DNA of 48,033 bases from assembly GCA_030528355.1 (NCBI GenBank), contig JAUMZA010000008.1:1-48033 (forward strand). The letters are read 5' to 3'. Source of the stretch: Candidatus Saccharimonadota bacterium (GTDB lineage: Bacteria > Patescibacteriota > Saccharimonadia > Saccharimonadales > Saccharimonadaceae). Positions 1 through 8,723 of this stretch are shown here, piece by piece (positions within the stretch are counted from its first letter, which is position 1; each line of letters starts with the position of its first letter). The notes under the pieces are model-generated. The model saw only the letters and a list, made by a program, of their open reading frames with translations. It was not told the DNA's origin and did not search any database. A program made the translations under genes and the position numbers.

Positions 1-883
1 TAACCCGCATACCATGAAGTAACTTGCCTTTAAGGTCACACTTATCGATCAGCCAGCCAGTTGGGATTTTGTAATTGCCCTCACCCATATCAAAATGAGG
101 CATATCAGGGTATTCGCTTAGTAGATCGCTGAGCACCCAGTGGGGTACGACTGCATTTTTGAAGAATGATCCCGAATTTGGCTTGCGAGTAGGGTCTGGC
201 AGTTTGCTGTGGCGAATCGCCATGACTGCTTCACGGATAATCTGTACGGTGTAATCGGTAATATGGTGCTCGTCGAAATAGCGTTGCAGGCCAGCGTAAA
301 ATGGTGGAGCTGGTGCGGTTTTGTAGAGTGTAAGAGTAATGGCGGTTATAATGTAACGTCCAGGCTCGCCATCTCTAAATAGGCTAGTGCGGTAGCCAAA
401 TCGGCACTGTTCGTTTGAAAGTGCTACTAGCTGATTGGTCGTGGTGTCGAGCGCTTCAACTTCTACTAGGGTATCGGCCACTTCTTCGCCGTATGCACCA
501 ATATTCTGGACAGGCGCTGCCCCGCAGGTGCCGGGTATGATTGACATAGCAGCAATGCCGTTTAGGTTTTTTTCAACCGCTAGTGCGACAAGGTCATCCC
601 ATAGCTCGCCCGCATTGGCCTTAATAGTGGCGGAGTCTTTATCTTCTGCGATAACTTCCATGCCCATAATGCGGTTTTTAATAATTACCCCGTTAAAGCC
701 TTCGTCGTGGGCAATAATGTTGGTGCCTCCCCCAATTACATAAAAGGGGAGCTGCTTTTCTTTGATGTTAGCAATAAGCTGTTGCAGCTGTTCAACCGAG
801 GCGACTTCTGCCATAAAGCGAGCTGGCCCGCCAAGTTTCATACTAAGATGTGTTGCCAGTGGCGTGTTGATTTGAGTATCCAT
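1..883 (-). CDS. murB: UDP-N-acetylmuramate dehydrogenase, 3' end cut by window edge
   Basis: MurB reduces UDP-GlcNAc-enolpyruvate to UDP-MurNAc with NADPH and FAD in cytoplasmic peptidoglycan precursor synthesis. The minus-strand frame opens at ATG 883 and runs off the window. It shows the FAD-binding segment YVIGGGTNI near residue 50, the PGTCGAAPVQNIGAYG block near 117-132, YRTSLF with the conserved Arg near 165, and NSGSFFKNAVV with the proton-donor Ser. The spacing fits the longer E. coli-like type I family. The C-terminal catalytic Glu lies beyond the window. A TATAAT box only 8 nt upstream of the ATG fixes the start and suggests a leaderless mRNA. It diverges from tRNA-Arg. Confidence 0.93.
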   Translation of the reverse strand, partial: MDTQINTPLATHLSMKLGGPARFMAEVASVEQLQQLIANIKEKQLPFYVIGGGTNIIAHDEGFNGVIIKNRIMGMEVIAEDKDSATIKANAGELWDDLVALAVEKNLNGIAAMSIIPGTCGAAPVQNIGAYGEEVADTLVEVEALDTTTNQLVALSNEQCRFGYRTSLFRDGEPGRYIITAITLTLYKTAPAPPFYAGLQRYFDEHHITDYTVQIIREAVMAIRHSKLPDPTRKPNSGSFFKNAVVPHWVLSDLLSEYPDMPHFDMGEGNYKIPTGWLIDKCDLKGKLLHGMRV

Positions 884-1084: not shown

Positions 1085-4000
1085 TTATTGACCGGGGTGA
1101 ATAAAAATTCTTTCTGTTGAAATTGTCTGCATTTTTTTTAGCGTACTGCTGCTTGGGCTGTATATCCTACCCCTTTCCTTGGTGATACCTGCGACATCGC
1201 CCCAGCAGGGTAGCTCCCCTCCAACCAGCAGGCAAGCACCGTAAGGGTGTGCACTAATAGAGAACCCTCGGTATCCACTACTATTTGAGTCTGTTCCGGG
1301 CTGGATGGTTGAGGCATTTGCAATTCCACCTTGCAGGAGCTGTAGGCGATTGTTTACCCCCCAGCAGTTTGTGTATATGTTTGGCTGGGTGTGAGGATCT
1401 ATTTTTGCGACCTCATCAGTTAAAATGGCACAGGTGTAATCTCCTGCTGCGGCGATCGAGTGGAATGTTTTATTTTTAATCGGTGCCCAGTCCGAAGGTC
1501 CGACTCCGGAAGCTACTGGCTTATTTTGATTTGCTGTAGCTTGATTGCCAAGCTGGCCATGATTGTTTGCACCCCAGCAACGAACAAGCTTATCTGAGGT
1601 AAATGCACATGTATGATTGTACCCCGCAGTAATAGTGGTTATTTTTTTGCCATTTAGTACGCCGGCGGTGTCTACTTGTCTCGGGCTAGCACTGTCGGTA
1701 TTTGTACCATTGCCTAGTTGTCCATGATTATTTCTGCCCCAGCAGTGAATTGTGTTGTCATTAGCAAGTGCACAGGAGTGTTCACTGCCAAGTGCAAGCT
1801 GTACGGCAGTTTTATTGCGAAGGCTGCTGTGACTACTTGACATATCAATTGCCATTGGTCTGTGTGCTGCAACACCACCAGCACTGCTTCCGCTGGATTG
1901 ACGGTAATTATTGTTGCCCCAGCAGTATATTTTACCTTCTGATATCACACAGGTATTATCTTTGCCTGCAGCTATATAGGTGACTAGATTATTACGCAGG
2001 CTGCTGCTTGCCGATGTGTCAATTAATGCTGGATAGGGGGAGTGGGGGGTGCCTGTTTTGCCATTACCAAGCTGGCCATGATTGTTTGCACCCCAGCAGT
2101 ACACTTTTCCGCCGCCAAGTGCACAGGCATGGTTAAGGCCTGTTGCAACCTGAGAGAAAGCCTCTGATCTAAGTGGGCTGCTTGAATGCTTGCCTTGTAT
2201 GGACATTGCCGTCCGACGATTTATAGTTGTGCCATCTCCAATCTGCCCTAGGCTATTATTATTTGTACTGCCGTAACCCCAACAGTATACCGATCGTGTA
2301 GTGCTTGTTGTACAGTACCCATTTGCTGGTTTGGTGTAGTCTCTTAGGTCTTCTGGCTTCACCCCGAGATGGGCTAGATTGATCTCGGTTGGATGTGCTG
2401 TAATATAGCTACCATGTACTTCGTAGCTGTTTCTGCTAGTACTGTCCGGTTCGTAGCCCTTTTTTGTTTGCCCCCAGCAATATACCTTACCTCCCGCTAT
2501 CGCACAAGTATCCGTTAGGCTGGTAGAGATTTGCTCTGCCTGTAGTCCGTGCAAGTCCACTTTGTAAGGTGAAATAATCTGCTCTGTGGCACTGTGATTA
2601 CCATTGCCGATTTGCCCTGCTATATTGCTCCCCCAACAGTATACATTGTCTTTGTTAGTTAGGGCACAGGTGTGAAAGCCGTACCAGCCCGCACCGCTTG
2701 AGGCGACTTGCTGTACGCCATATTCATGTCGAGGTATTGAGACGTAGGAGTCGGGTCTACTTATGTCGGGAGCTGGAGTGTAAGAGTTTTGCCAGTAATA
2801 TGCGTCGTTATCTCCTGCTTGTGTGCCAATGCCAAGTTGCCCTAGGCCATTCCCTCCCCAGCATATCAATCCAGCCTTGCTGTCTATAGCACATAGATGA
2901 TGAGAACCTGCTACTATAGAGGCTATGCCATTTTCGTTAAGTTTACTATTGAGGTGTGTGTACATTAATCGTGTCTCGCCCGTGCTACCCCACAAAGGAA
3001 AGGTAGGGAGGATTCTATACTTGTGTTCATTTGGTGTCGGGTTGCTAAAATTATCTTGTCGAATTACGTCACCCCAGCAGTAAAGCTTCTTTAGAGATAA
3101 AGCACAGATACCGCTGTGAGTTAGGGCTATTTGGTCAACTGGCTGAGAGTTGAGCTCCCCCCACGAGGCGTGTCCAACTTGGACGGGTATTGGGCTATTT
3201 GACGACATGGCGACACTAGAGCCGTCTTCGCCGCCTTTGTGAAGATGAGTTACCTCACCCCAGCAGTATATCTTGCTACCTGCAACCACACAGGCGATAT
3301 TGCCCGCAGTAGTCAGCTGTGATACGGACTTTCCCTGGATTGGGTTGTGTGAGGCTAAGGTGTTCATCTTTACTGGGTGCGGCGAGTTTGTCTTTGTGCC
3401 ATTTCCTAGCTGTCCGTAGTTATTTCTACCCCAGCAGTGAATTTCACTACCGGATAATGCACAGGTGAAGTTGTGGCCGGTAGCGACATCGGTAACCACC
3501 TTGCCTTTTAGGCTGCTAGAGTTGCTGCTCATATCGACTGCAACTGGGTTATGGAAGTCGGTATTACCTGCCTGTGTGCCATTTCCTAGCTGTCCGTAGT
3601 TATTTCTACCCCAGCAGTATATTCGGCCTGCTGCAACAACACAGCTATGAGTGTCGCTTGTGGAAATTCGAGTTGGCTTGCGGGCTGGCTGTAATAGATT
3701 TGCTTGACGTGTTCCAATAGTTTGTAGTGATTTTTGTAAAAAGTTATGGGTGATTGTTGCGATACTTCCATAAGAAACTGATGAAATGAGCCTTGAGGTA
3801 TACTGACGATCAATTGGTGCGTTTAAGCCAATTTTGTCACTGCTCTTGCCATCCATTGCACATGGATTTGCTGATGTAATATCGCTCCATGAGATAGTGT
3901 TAATATCTTGCTGTTCGCACACTGAGGCGCCAATTAGGCCACTGATGGTGGTGTTTTGTGCTGCAATGAGCTGTGTGATATTGCGTGAGCTGCTTGCTAA

Positions 4001-4120
4001 TGTTGCAATATACTGCAGCACAATTGAAAGTATTGCAAGAAGAACTATAGAGACTACCACTACCGTTACGAGTGTGTAGCCTTCTTGTTTTTGTGATGTG
4101 CGTCTGCAAAAGTCTACCAT
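1085..4120 (-). CDS. Pilin-like protein fused to a 14-repeat RCC1 beta-propeller (candidate pilus-tip adhesin)
   Basis: A 1011-aa protein. Residues about 10-45 look like a class III (prepilin) signal: basic segment, Gly, then YTLVTVVVV and a long hydrophobic helix. Unlike its two upstream neighbours it lacks Glu at position +5 after the Gly, as known for GspK-type tip pseudopilins. From about residue 150 on there are 14 RCC1-type repeats of the form YCWGxNNxGQLGNGT. Every one of the 14 CWG motifs has a partner Cys upstream, usually 10-12 residues (for example TCAL...YC; longer in repeat 13), suggesting 14 intra-blade disulfides. Fourteen blades equal two seven-bladed propellers. The start overlaps the upstream pilin gene by 7 nt. 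Secreted adhesin function is inferred; no homologue was searched. Confidence 0.85.
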   Translation of the reverse strand: MVDFCRRTSQKQEGYTLVTVVVVSIVLLAILSIVLQYIATLASSSRNITQLIAAQNTTISGLIGASVCEQQDINTISWSDITSANPCAMDGKSSDKIGLNAPIDRQYTSRLISSVSYGSIATITHNFLQKSLQTIGTRQANLLQPARKPTRISTSDTHSCVVAAGRIYCWGRNNYGQLGNGTQAGNTDFHNPVAVDMSSNSSSLKGKVVTDVATGHNFTCALSGSEIHCWGRNNYGQLGNGTKTNSPHPVKMNTLASHNPIQGKSVSQLTTAGNIACVVAGSKIYCWGEVTHLHKGGEDGSSVAMSSNSPIPVQVGHASWGELNSQPVDQIALTHSGICALSLKKLYCWGDVIRQDNFSNPTPNEHKYRILPTFPLWGSTGETRLMYTHLNSKLNENGIASIVAGSHHLCAIDSKAGLICWGGNGLGQLGIGTQAGDNDAYYWQNSYTPAPDISRPDSYVSIPRHEYGVQQVASSGAGWYGFHTCALTNKDNVYCWGSNIAGQIGNGNHSATEQIISPYKVDLHGLQAEQISTSLTDTCAIAGGKVYCWGQTKKGYEPDSTSRNSYEVHGSYITAHPTEINLAHLGVKPEDLRDYTKPANGYCTTSTTRSVYCWGYGSTNNNSLGQIGDGTTINRRTAMSIQGKHSSSPLRSEAFSQVATGLNHACALGGGKVYCWGANNHGQLGNGKTGTPHSPYPALIDTSASSSLRNNLVTYIAAGKDNTCVISEGKIYCWGNNNYRQSSGSSAGGVAAHRPMAIDMSSSHSSLRNKTAVQLALGSEHSCALANDNTIHCWGRNNHGQLGNGTNTDSASPRQVDTAGVLNGKKITTITAGYNHTCAFTSDKLVRCWGANNHGQLGNQATANQNKPVASGVGPSDWAPIKNKTFHSIAAAGDYTCAILTDEVAKIDPHTQPNIYTNCWGVNNRLQLLQGGIANASTIQPGTDSNSSGYRGFSISAHPYGACLLVGGELPCWGDVAGITKERGRIYSPSSSTLKKMQTISTERIFIHPGQ

Positions 4121-5001
4121 GCGATTGCTCCTCTTGTTGATACGGTGAAGATGTTTTCTTTATTGTTTATGGTCTTTTTTGTGCGAATAGTAATTCGTAT
4201 ATCCTTAGGGTTGTTGGGTAGGTATATCAATCTTCTAGTGGCGGTTTGAACTGACTCGCTGCCACCTTCATTATTAACTAAGGATCGGTAATCGGCAGGA
4301 TTTTTTGCATAGGGTGTATCGAAGTAGTCTATGGAGAATTTGTCAACGTTTTTTAATATTACAACATCTTTTGCACCAGACCCCCCCGTTCGTGTAGTTG
4401 TTTTCTCGTTTGCCTCACTTATATAGTTACACCACGGTGCTCTGATGTCATTGATAAACATATTCTCTGTATCTCCTGGCGTGTCTGCAATTTGGCTGTC
4501 TGGTGCAGGTGCGATAGTGCGTCTATATAAGGTTTCGCCATCTAGGTAGTAGATTATATTATAATACACTGGGCTTGCGTAGTCTCCTATGCAGCTTGCA
4601 GAGAGCCCCTTCCCCCTGCCTATGATCGTAAGGTCGTGTGACACATAGCTACGTTTTGTGAGTATTTTTTGTAGGATAAGATTATTTCCGTTAGGGTTTC
4701 GGCCTTTAAAATCCCAAATTTGCTTCCGCCACCCCCATCGTAGATTTTGAGTGCTGGATTCCTCATCGTCAAGCGAGGAAAAGCGTAAGAAAGCAGTGCT
4801 GTACAAAATATCTTTTTGGATTGACTGTATGGCACTGTACATGTCATTTGATTGCTTTGTGCGACCAATTAGATCTTGCAGGGAATTGAAAAAATTTGTC
4901 AAAATAGGAATAAGTCCAAGGATGACAATAGCAGATATTGTAATTGATACAATTATCTCTACAGTAGTAAGGCCGGGTGTGGCATTAGTCTTCTTTCGCA
5001 T
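4114..5001 (-). CDS. Type IV pilin-like / minor pseudopilin protein
   Basis: A 295-aa protein with a class III signal: a basic start, then PG followed by LTTVEIIVSITISAIVILG, so Glu is at position +5 of the predicted mature protein. A hydrophobic helix is followed by a polar soluble domain of about 250 residues containing several Cys. This architecture fits PilW/GspJ-like minor pilins, but no family-specific motif was recognised in the soluble part. It is the middle gene of a three-gene operon, overlapping the upstream pilin gene by 17 nt and the RCC1-pilin gene by 7 nt, which implies translational coupling. It is probably part of the same tip complex. Confidence 0.8.
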   Translation of the reverse strand: MRKKTNATPGLTTVEIIVSITISAIVILGLIPILTNFFNSLQDLIGRTKQSNDMYSAIQSIQKDILYSTAFLRFSSLDDEESSTQNLRWGWRKQIWDFKGRNPNGNNLILQKILTKRSYVSHDLTIIGRGKGLSASCIGDYASPVYYNIIYYLDGETLYRRTIAPAPDSQIADTPGDTENMFINDIRAPWCNYISEANEKTTTRTGGSGAKDVVILKNVDKFSIDYFDTPYAKNPADYRSLVNNEGGSESVQTATRRLIYLPNNPKDIRITIRTKKTINNKENIFTVSTRGAIAW

Positions 5002-5452
5002 ATCGCACCTCTACAACGTTTACTCTATTTTGCACTGGGCCGTATTTTACAGTAGACTCTACTGTTACAATCCCTCTGCAATCTTTTGAGTTATTGGTGT
5101 TGCTCGCTGGGTTGTCTCTGTGTCTGGTGTACGCAACCACTTTCTGTGAAAAATATCCACCATAATTACCAGTAGGAATGGGCTCCTTGTTGGCTGAGCT
5201 GTTATTTAATACAACTAGTCCTGAGTTTGCATCTAGGTGTATTCTACAGTCAAATCCTATTAGGTGATCTTTGAAGCGATACTTTAATAGATTGGAGTTT
5301 GCAACAAGTGTCGCTGCTGCCTTCCTATTATTACTTTCAATTGTAGCCGATGCAAACGCAAAGCCTTGTAGAAAAATACCAATAAACAAGACGGCGATGA
5401 TGATAGCTACAATAACTTCAACAATAGTAAACCCCTCATTCGCCCGTTTCAT
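4985..5452 (-). CDS. Type IV pilin-like protein, first gene of pilin operon
   Basis: A 155-aa protein beginning MKRANEG followed by FTIVEVIVAI, a canonical prepilin peptidase site with Phe+1 and Glu+5, then a hydrophobic helix and a soluble domain of about 120 residues with one Cys pair. Length fits PilV/GspI-like minor pilins. The ATG at 5452 is chosen over an upstream GTG at 5479 because a TATAAT box (5463-5468) lies between them. The resulting leader is only a few nt. Its 3' end overlaps the next pilin gene by 17 nt. Assembly genes (PilB, PilC, PilD) are not in this window. Confidence 0.82.
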   Translation of the reverse strand: MKRANEGFTIVEVIVAIIIAVLFIGIFLQGFAFASATIESNNRKAAATLVANSNLLKYRFKDHLIGFDCRIHLDANSGLVVLNNSSANKEPIPTGNYGGYFSQKVVAYTRHRDNPASNTNNSKDCRGIVTVESTVKYGPVQNRVNVVEVRYAKED

Positions 5453-5462
5453 AATGCTTATG

Positions 5463-5468
5463 ATTATA
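5463..5468 (-). promoter_or_regulatory. -10 box of the pilin operon
   Basis: An extended TGCTATAAT reads leftward 10 nt from the ATG at 5452. It excludes the longer GTG-initiated frame because that start would be upstream of the transcription start. Confidence 0.5.
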
Positions 5469-5527
5469 GCACCCGTCACCCCGGGTTGTCTAGTGATGAA
5501 ATAAGTTCATTTCCCATCACATACCCC

Positions 5528-6872: not shown

Positions 6873-8723
6873 TTAGCCGATATTTCGGCGACTTGCTAGG
6901 TAGTAGCCTAGGCTAATAGTCATGGCACTTAGTCCAAGTAGTGCGGCTGCGTCAAGGCCACCAGTTTTTGGTAGTTCGCTTGGAAGCTCGATACAGTCAG
7001 GACTGTTCTTTGGCAGGTGTTCTTTGCCAGGAACGGTGCACATTTCTTTCTTTGGCTCAAGTGGAGCAGCGGCACAATCGGCTGCGTTCTTTGAATGCTT
7101 GCTTGCATCAAAGGCACTCTCCTTGATCTTTACTGGGAAGGTCTTGGTTGTAAGGTCGCATACTTCGATTTCCTTTTCAACCACAGTTTCTTTACAGTCA
7201 TCTAGGTTGGTTGAGTAACTCGCAGGGTTAGCAGAAAGTTCTTTCTTCTCGACTTCAACAATCTTCTTATCGCTGAGTCGGCATACTTTTACTTTTTCTG
7301 GAGCGGGTGGAGTAGGAGCTTTTGGTACGACGATATCGGTGGTACATTTTGGACCGCTGGCAGTTACTTCTTTACCATCTACCATAAATACGGCAGTAGC
7401 TTCAACAGTGTATTTGCCAGGATTGGTTTGCTCGTACTCTGCCATGGTTGGCTTGCCAGTTAGCTTGGCAACTTCCTTGCCCTGTGCATCACGTACTGCG
7501 TAGACGATGTGCTTAAAGGTGCCGCCCTTTACTTCGTAGCTGGTATTGAACTTAAAGCGAGTATCGCTTAAGACTTGTGCAGTCAGTACACCACAGTGGT
7601 AACTTGCAGGAGTGCTACACTCTTTCTTGACAGTGACGGTTGCAGTATCTTGCTTGCTGCCGTTTTCGGTTTGAGCATAGGCAGTGTTAACAAGGCTGTT
7701 GTCGCCACAGTCAAGAGCGGCAAGGTCGGTAACTTTGGCACTAAACTTTAGGAATAGGCCGCCGTTTGGTGCATAGCTCCCAAGGTTGATGCCTCGTTCA
7801 CTTACGACGCCATCATCAGCAATTTTCTTCCATTGGTGATTGGTGGTGCTATTTGATACGTGGGTTGAGCCCGGAATGTAGCTTACACCCTTTGGTAATA
7901 CGTCACGAATTACGACATTGTTTTGCTGAACGGTACCGGTGTTATGGTAGCTAATCTTGTAATCAACTGTTTCGCCGGCATGTACCGCTACTTGCTTGGT
8001 GTACTTATTTTGCTGTGCTTTGCTGACTTGCTTGGTCACCTTAAAGCCAGGCTGTACTACCTTAAAGCGGAAGGTGATATAGCCAGAAAATTCGTTACAG
8101 CCAGGCACCTTACCATCGAGCTTATCGTAGCCGAGCAGGGCACCAGTAGTAAAGAGTTCATTTGGCAATGGCTGGCCGTTGGTCTTACCGAGGTTGGTGA
8201 TTTTTGCCGAGTTTGGCACAATGCGCAAGGCTGCGTCGCCAGCGGTATTGTTTACGCCGTAGGCTTCATCCCATACTTCTTTTGGCTGGGCATTGCTGGC
8301 ACTAATAATGCTGGTAATGCGAGCTTTTTCGCCCTTCTTTACGGTGCCAGGTAGTTGAATGCGCATTTTTGCATCAACTGCCATGCCTTTATAATTGTGT
8401 GCTGCATCGTTAAGATGACTTTTTGCATTGTTATGGTAAAATGCATATACTTCATATTCTTTACCTGGGGTGAGCTGCACTTCTTCGCCGTACTTGCCGC
8501 CAGCTTCACGAATTTGCACGAAGTTGCGTTCGTCGCCGTGTTTTTTATTGTTAGTAATTGAGTTAAATACCACGTGATCGGCTGGCTTTTCTAGGGTATA
8601 TGTTGGACGACTGGCTGGCCCCCATGCAAATAGGCTTGCTGGAACCGCCACTGCCGCAACTAATACCAGTAGGCCGGCCGCACGCTTTGGGGCGCGTCGT
8701 AGCGCTGCTAGTATGGTTTTCAT
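6873..8723 (-). CDS. LPKTG-anchored surface protein with DUF11-like domain and Cys-pair repeats
   Basis: A 616-aa exported protein. It has an N-terminal signal (basic start, then LLVLVAAVAVPASLFAWG). An N-terminal domain of about 200 residues is followed by a DUF11-like beta domain near residues 235-365 (GETVDYKISYHNTG, DVLPKGVSYIPGST). A second beta domain lies near 370-465, then a C-terminal stalk with three related Cys-pair repeats (VCRLSDKK...DDC, VCDLTTKT...ADC, MCTVPGKE...PDC). It ends with ELPKTGG, a hydrophobic helix and RRN, the classic sortase signal. A strong Shine-Dalgarno (AAGGAG) is placed about 8 nt before the ATG. No sortase gene is in the window. Likely a cell-wall-anchored adhesin or stalk. 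Confidence 0.85.
   Translation of the reverse strand: MKTILAALRRAPKRAAGLLVLVAAVAVPASLFAWGPASRPTYTLEKPADHVVFNSITNNKKHGDERNFVQIREAGGKYGEEVQLTPGKEYEVYAFYHNNAKSHLNDAAHNYKGMAVDAKMRIQLPGTVKKGEKARITSIISASNAQPKEVWDEAYGVNNTAGDAALRIVPNSAKITNLGKTNGQPLPNELFTTGALLGYDKLDGKVPGCNEFSGYITFRFKVVQPGFKVTKQVSKAQQNKYTKQVAVHAGETVDYKISYHNTGTVQQNNVVIRDVLPKGVSYIPGSTHVSNSTTNHQWKKIADDGVVSERGINLGSYAPNGGLFLKFSAKVTDLAALDCGDNSLVNTAYAQTENGSKQDTATVTVKKECSTPASYHCGVLTAQVLSDTRFKFNTSYEVKGGTFKHIVYAVRDAQGKEVAKLTGKPTMAEYEQTNPGKYTVEATAVFMVDGKEVTASGPKCTTDIVVPKAPTPPAPEKVKVCRLSDKKIVEVEKKELSANPASYSTNLDDCKETVVEKEIEVCDLTTKTFPVKIKESAFDASKHSKNAADCAAAPLEPKKEMCTVPGKEHLPKNSPDCIELPSELPKTGGLDAAALLGLSAMTISLGYYLASRRNIG

Follow-up and report, generated by a model that had tools for sequence, protein, structure and literature searches.

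A PilX2-type minor pilin with fourteen RCC1 repeats, modelled as two seven-blade propellers, in a saccharibacterial pilus locus

The closest described system is that of TM7x (Nanosynbacter lyticus), for which the available text of Grossman et al. (2025, PMC12206443) describes PilX2, a minor pilin with a hepta-bladed RCC1 propeller that forms part of T4P-2, a thin pilus. Deletion of pilX2 lowered the fraction of host-bound cells from 10.6% to 4.6% and also altered the number and length of the filaments; among the T4P-2 minor pilins tested, loss of PilX2 alone significantly cut host binding, and PilX2 is put forward there as the adhesin of T4P-2. In other pilus systems, a review describes a tip complex capped by a subunit without Glu5 (PMC10191384), absence of Glu5 is linked to the capping subunit (PMC10191384, PMC9934059), and pneumococcal ComGG is one such Glu5-less protein (PMC8727766), in each case as far as the available text goes. 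Adhesive modules grafted onto pilins, as proposed here, are described for PilB and PilC of Streptococcus sanguinis (PMC8179133), although in the available text for that species the modules, of the vWA and lectin types, are not carried by the subunit that lacks Glu5 (PMC8179133, PMC9934059). Among the matches listed in the open-licence literature, we found no paper on RCC1 pilins beyond PMC12206443, and none on doubled propellers.

We analysed a window of 48,033 nucleotides, meaning the whole stretch of DNA presented here, from a member of the Saccharimonadaceae. The window encodes a PilX2-type relative in a matching locus, likened to TM7x PilX2 through the published description and not through the TM7x sequence. 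Both are minor pilins with a noncanonical signal and a C-terminal RCC1 propeller part, encoded in a pilin locus apart from the machinery; the published PilX2 has one hepta-bladed propeller, whereas the window protein has 14 repeats and, as modelled, two propellers. A single propeller is a trait of the sole described PilX2 and is not known as a defining one, and 7, 14 and 21 repeats all occur in one pilin family. We consider it probable that the window protein is the Glu5-less capping pilin of a T4P-2, with two disulfide-stapled propellers that would bind the host surface. The fusion of RCC1 repeats to a pilin, which the initial annotation took to be new, is already published for TM7x in the text available (PMC12206443), as is the proposal that such a pilin serves in host binding; what is new here is the doubling of the propeller, together with repeat counts that run in sevens and heads that are swapped.

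The ORF at 1085..4120 (-) starts with ATG and encodes a PilX2-type modular minor pilin of 1011 residues; it is the only RCC1 gene found in the 835-kb assembly of 21 contigs. Pfam matches to RCC1 (PF00415, E 1.3e-64), RCC1_2 and WD40_RLD are all above cut-off, and the Cys/CWG count gives 14 repeats. Preceding these are a hydrophilic leader of 14 residues with Gly at -1 (4079..4120 (-), read from the translation), a hydrophobic N-terminal pilin helix with Thr at +5 (residues 15-43, 3992..4078 (-), modelled as helix over 16-43), and the remainder of the pilin module with Cys68 and Cys87 (residues 44-144, 3689..3991 (-), from alignments A1/A2 and with low pLDDT in the model). It had been claimed from the initial reading that a pilin-like N-terminus without Glu at +5 is joined to RCC1 repeats in one ORF, while the two upstream pilins keep the glutamate, and translation and Pfam bear this out: the N-terminal sequence is ...QKQEG↓YTLVTVVVV, which places Thr at +5, whereas the two upstream genes encode class III pilins (G↓LTTVE and G↓FTIVE) with Glu. 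Pfam N_methyl gives no match to the protein, as is expected because Glu5 is absent, and the label of pilin therefore rests on the helix, the -1 Gly, the operon and the homologues. An NCBIfam scan for GspK-type models gave a sole match, to XpsI, far under its cut-off (E 0.091). The PilY1 propeller domain (IPR008707) found no Pfam match in the protein; PilY1 also bears a propeller and is a tip adhesin in type IV pili, but it is a non-pilin whose propeller belongs to another family, whereas the N-terminus here is that of a pilin.

The upstream neighbours are a PilW2/GspJ-position minor pilin of 295 residues with Glu5 (4114..5001 (-), an ORF with one of the two motifs above) and a PilV2/GspI-position minor pilin, also with Glu5 (4985..5452 (-)), whose N_methyl match (E 2.8e-4) is slightly below the curated cut-off. 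The three ORFs overlap, V ending at 4985, W running from 5001 to 4114 and X starting at 4120, which is consistent with a single operon. Just upstream of the trio is an extended sigma-70-like promoter, TAGACA-18-TATAAT (5463..5492 (-)), recognised by a consensus match of 11/12. ATG 5452 is the likelier start of V because the listed GTG at 5479 overlaps the promoter-like site (5492-5463). The -10 box ends only about 11 bases before this likely ATG (5452-5492 (-)), a gap so short that the transcript of the operon could have almost no leader. Capping pilins of the GspK/ComGG type likewise lack Glu5 and are encoded last, after Glu5-bearing pilins in the I and J positions, but in GspK an alpha-domain is inserted in the pilin sheet, whereas in the window protein the propellers come after the pilin module.

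A MurB gene, identified by Pfam and synteny and cut by the window end (2..883 (-)), is a conserved neighbour of the locus. In a same-genus genome (G001) the order is X2-W2-V2, MurB, a major pilin and genes for proteins of 399 and 508 aa, and in another genome (G018) it is MurB, three pilins, the RCC1 pilin and a major pilin, where the genes of both genomes are named by position and motif and MurB by Pfam in the window only. Contig C7 of our assembly opens with a major-type pilin followed by the same genes, of 398 and 508 aa, and the MurB of the window runs off its left end, from which we infer that the pilin locus was probably split by the assembly. Between the window genome and G001 the locus pilins are 33-39% identical, MurB 58% and two other neighbours 77-85%; thus every pilin of the locus, and not the head alone, changes fast. 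Elsewhere in the window, the surface protein encoded at 6873-8723 (-) (616 aa) contains a DUF11-type repeat and, at its C-terminus, an LPKTG-like sorting motif that the LPXTG model scores at 14.9 bits, slightly short of its cut-off.

Pilus assembly genes, whose absence from the genome would have spoken against a pilus protein, were found in two sets. C7 carries homologues of PilB, PilC, PilM and PilN and two further genes adjoining recX/recA, with the PilN2 match lying just below the Pfam cut-off and PilO2 being named from position only; no PilT is found in this set. C9 carries a T4P-1 set with PilB, a shorter PilT-like ATPase, PilC, PilD, PilM and pilins. As in TM7x T4P-2, the C7 machinery locus thus has no retraction ATPase and does have recAX, and the two-system layout is that reported for TM7x in the available text (PMC12206443).

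When a profile built from just the pilin module (A2, 8 rows) was searched against Saccharimonadaceae, 124 of 394 genomes, in 34 of 61 genera, gave a match (E <= 1e-5). The pilin-module search across the phylum gave matches in 27 of 379 genomes, 14 of them in the same family; the matches in the other 13, of which 2 share the order and 11 come from the rest of the phylum, are all weak, with E of 1e-8 to 1e-5. From 111 regions (11 + 100), two further loci and the window we collected 118 PilX-type ORFs, or 116 without duplicates. RCC1-pilin fusions, which the initial annotation had suggested looking for in related genomes, are indeed present, with at least 3 RCC1 repeats in 66 of the 116. Glu5 pilins lie directly upstream of 20 of 65 RCC1-bearing PilX-type genes, and none was found upstream of the other 45. 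Two orphan RCC1 pilins without the trio, L091 (G005) and L094 (G016), adjoin glutaredoxin-like and ATP-synthase-like genes that were named by eye.

The residue at -1 is Gly in 103 and Ala in 15 of the 118 aligned sequences, and that at +5 is Thr in 82, Ser in 9, Val in 8, Leu in 8, Ile in 4, Ala in 4, Gly in 2 and Asp in 1. Glu occurs in none (0/118), an absence that is partly due to the choice of query, the profile having been made from Glu5-less sequences. Pro occupies +4 in 108/118, while 10 further aligned fragments are gapped there; Pro4-Thr5 is typical, and the start consensus contains a conserved GFALPT. This recalls PilA of S. sanguinis, which has Pro4 and no Glu5 in the text available (PMC9934059).

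One could suppose that the protein is not built into a pilus at all and is an RCC1 surface protein retained in the membrane or wall by a pilin-like anchor. The absence of an N_methyl match would fit such a protein, TM7x PilX2 is without a predicted PilD signal in the available text (PMC12206443), and secreted RCC1 proteins lacking a pilin part are common in Saccharimonadaceae. We nevertheless regard this as improbable: the gene overlaps two genes for Glu5 pilins, Gly or Ala is kept at -1 in 118/118 relatives along with the GFALPT start, and TM7x PilX2 is functionally grouped with PilA2 (PMC12206443, available text). A capping pilin of T4P-2 is the reading we retain.

Structural models and the repeat numbers of relatives both support reading the 14 repeats as two closed seven-blade propellers. 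Propeller 1 (residues 147-584, blades 1-7, 2369..3682 (-)) was modelled with AlphaFold2 from residues 135-592 (pLDDT 76.3, pTM 0.82), using an alignment of 41 natural seven-repeat RCC1 groups from other organisms and other loci, a grouping that presupposes the unit, although the query segment was delimited from its own repeats 1-7. The model matches the closed seven-blade propeller of UVR8 over 342 residues (Z 44.3, rmsd 2.1, own residues 147-584). Propeller 2 (residues 585-966, blades 8-14, 1223..2368 (-)) is taken from the full-length model, which is weak (mean pLDDT 54.2, pTM 0.42) and models neither the pilin module nor the position of one propeller relative to the other well; its residues 583-966 match UVR8 (4dnu) over 324 residues (Z 29.2, rmsd 2.7). 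Structure prediction, proposed at the outset as the check on two seven-blade propellers, thus gives both halves as closed, the second from the weaker model.

Among 40 PilX-type proteins with at least 4 CWG motifs, 21 have 7 repeats, nine have 14 and two have 21; the exceptions have 13 (3), 11 (2) and 4, 5 or 6 (1 each), as counted by our own repeat model, which was trained on CWG blades and so undercounts CWG-less propellers. Of the three 13-repeat proteins, two contain one interval (101 or 162 residues) long enough for a missed blade. Closed propellers call for repeats in sevens, and the archaeal arrays described below, spaced in sevens, agree with this. A single 14-blade ring or an open array is not favoured, as each half matches a complete seven-blade propeller and the relatives count in sevens.

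RCC1 propellers have many binding partners, and BLIP-II binds beta-lactamase. BLIP-II also matches the propeller 1 model (Z 24), and structural comparison with viral proteins brought up RCC1 proteins of phages and giant viruses, including two tail-fibre-type records, which serve as an analogy only. Binding of a non-host target such as DNA, a phage or a secreted protein would suit such varied partners and the presence of RCC1-like folds in phage tail-fibre proteins. We find it very improbable, given that the TM7x pilX2 mutant binds its host less and, as regards a DNA receptor, that TM7x T4P-2 mutants retain wild-type competence (PMC12206443, available text); a host surface molecule is the target that we favour.

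The protein has 31 Cys, three of them N-terminal (5, 68 and 87), and the remaining 28 make exactly 14 pairs, so that past residue 145 every Cys is used in a pair of partner Cys and Cys of CWG, with none spare. The first reading had given all 14 CWG repeats an upstream partner Cys, and the count agrees. In 13 of 14 blades the partner Cys and the CWG are spaced by 9 or 10; in blade 13, whose hairpin holds an insertion, the figure is 22. Likewise in accord with what had been predicted, the strand register of the models would put the paired Cys on neighbouring strands, namely the two strands of a single hairpin, in 13/14 blades; by arithmetic on the modelled strand lists, which omits the poorly modelled blade 14, they are directly opposed at the strand ends in 8/13 and one residue off in 5/13.

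The pairs had also been singled out as a special feature, and this does not hold: they are the norm in extracellular RCC1 proteins. Across PilX-type RCC1 repeats the two Cys co-occur, with both present in 364, neither in 39 and one in 20; 32 other RCC1 ORFs give 348, 31 and 7, and a pair at 348 of 386 xWG sites rules out a peculiarity of the window protein. The plant receptor kinase CRINKLY4/ACR4, which has a single propeller and no pilin part, has an extracellular seven-blade RCC1-like ectodomain (PDB 7a0j, 7a0k) with the same C(X~10)CWG core in each repeat, held to form stabilising disulfides in the available text (PMC4617170); ACR4 7a0j is among the solved structures that match the RCC1 profile. 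Thiol-oxidation genes are present in the genome, one for VKOR (C18) and two for DsbA-like Thioredoxin_4 proteins (C6, C20), and disulfides may well form in the 14 blades.

Comparison of the blades points to a likely recent exchange between blades 1 and 2 and between blades 9 and 12. Blades 1 and 2 share an identical stretch of 44 bp (3575..3618 (-) in blade 1, 3395..3438 (-) in blade 2), and blades 9 and 12 have 32 identical bases in common. A recent duplication of a whole propeller is ruled out, as blade i is no closer to blade i+7 than to others (mean z -0.05, 11 proteins) and the offset-7 score within the window protein is unremarkable. Nor did the blades of 21-repeat relatives, compared singly with those of 14-repeat relatives, fall into a one-to-one register. 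With neither likeness at offset 7 nor a register, the reading as two sevens rests on counts and models.

Some pilin modules are 63-66% identical yet have unrelated C-terminal parts (24-28%), as with L163, which has 21 RCC1 repeats, and L181, which has none. In relatives (8 proteins scanned) Gly_rich_2, Ricin_B_lectin, Laminin_G_3 or Fibrinogen_C replace or accompany RCC1. On the pilin-module tree double propellers need 6 changes, 3 of them forced by well supported branches, though its bootstrap has not settled and the window protein, 33% identical overall to its same-genus homologue, sits on a long branch (3.28) in an unsure position. A wider scheme, which we put forward tentatively and which could well prove wrong, is that in host-binding pili of Saccharibacteria the Glu5-less tip pilin may be a standard socket for interchangeable heads (RCC1 arrays of up to three whole sevens, lectins of the ricin or laminin-G type, or Gly-rich parts), in which recombination would homogenise blades, only closed multiples of seven would persist, and the number and face of the propellers would change fast and set host range. 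The one tested RCC1 tip pilin, that of TM7x, is thus one member of a large family in which both the type of head and the number of propellers differ, and these heads are concrete, swappable candidates for tests of host recognition in tractable laboratory strains such as TM7x.

As to how the protein would work, PilV2, PilW2 and PilX2 would share an operon, be processed by PilD and enter the filament before other subunits, which would bring them to the tip as it grows, where PilX2 would cap the thin, PilT-less T4P-2 of this saccharibacterial epibiont. The pilin part would be the socket and the two propellers would hang off the tip, with VKOR and DsbA forming their blade disulfides once the chain is exported; the faces of the propellers would bind a molecule on the host's surface, keeping the epibiont tethered from a distance, and the second propeller may add a binding face or reach. 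The role in host attachment that the initial annotation had proposed is backed indirectly, by analogy with the published deletion of the single-propeller relative (PMC12206443, available text). As that deletion alters filament count and length, the lower binding could be secondary: PilX2 might be mainly an assembly primer that nucleates T4P-2 with PilV2/PilW2, its propellers merely stabilising or capping, and mutants would bind less through fewer or shorter pili. Loss of Glu5 and the operon order, as in GspK/ComGG, would fit a primer just as the filament phenotype does, but we think it unlikely to be the main role, as swapping of the C-terminal module among relatives with similar pilin parts suits ligand choice better, and as no other T4P-2 minor pilin tested in TM7x gave a significant loss of host binding (PMC12206443, available text). 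A capping pilin that itself binds the host remains our preferred account.

Longer arrays also occur. Two PilX-type ORFs of 1347 aa (L163, L164) carry 21 RCC1 repeats, probably three propellers, and stand at two separate places in the tree. Marine archaeal proteins (Poseidoniaceae/Euryarchaeota; L053, L054, L068, L069) have up to 42 Cys-paired RCC1 repeats, mostly by sevens, and the 42 repeats of L069 form six groups of seven with about 150 residues between groups.
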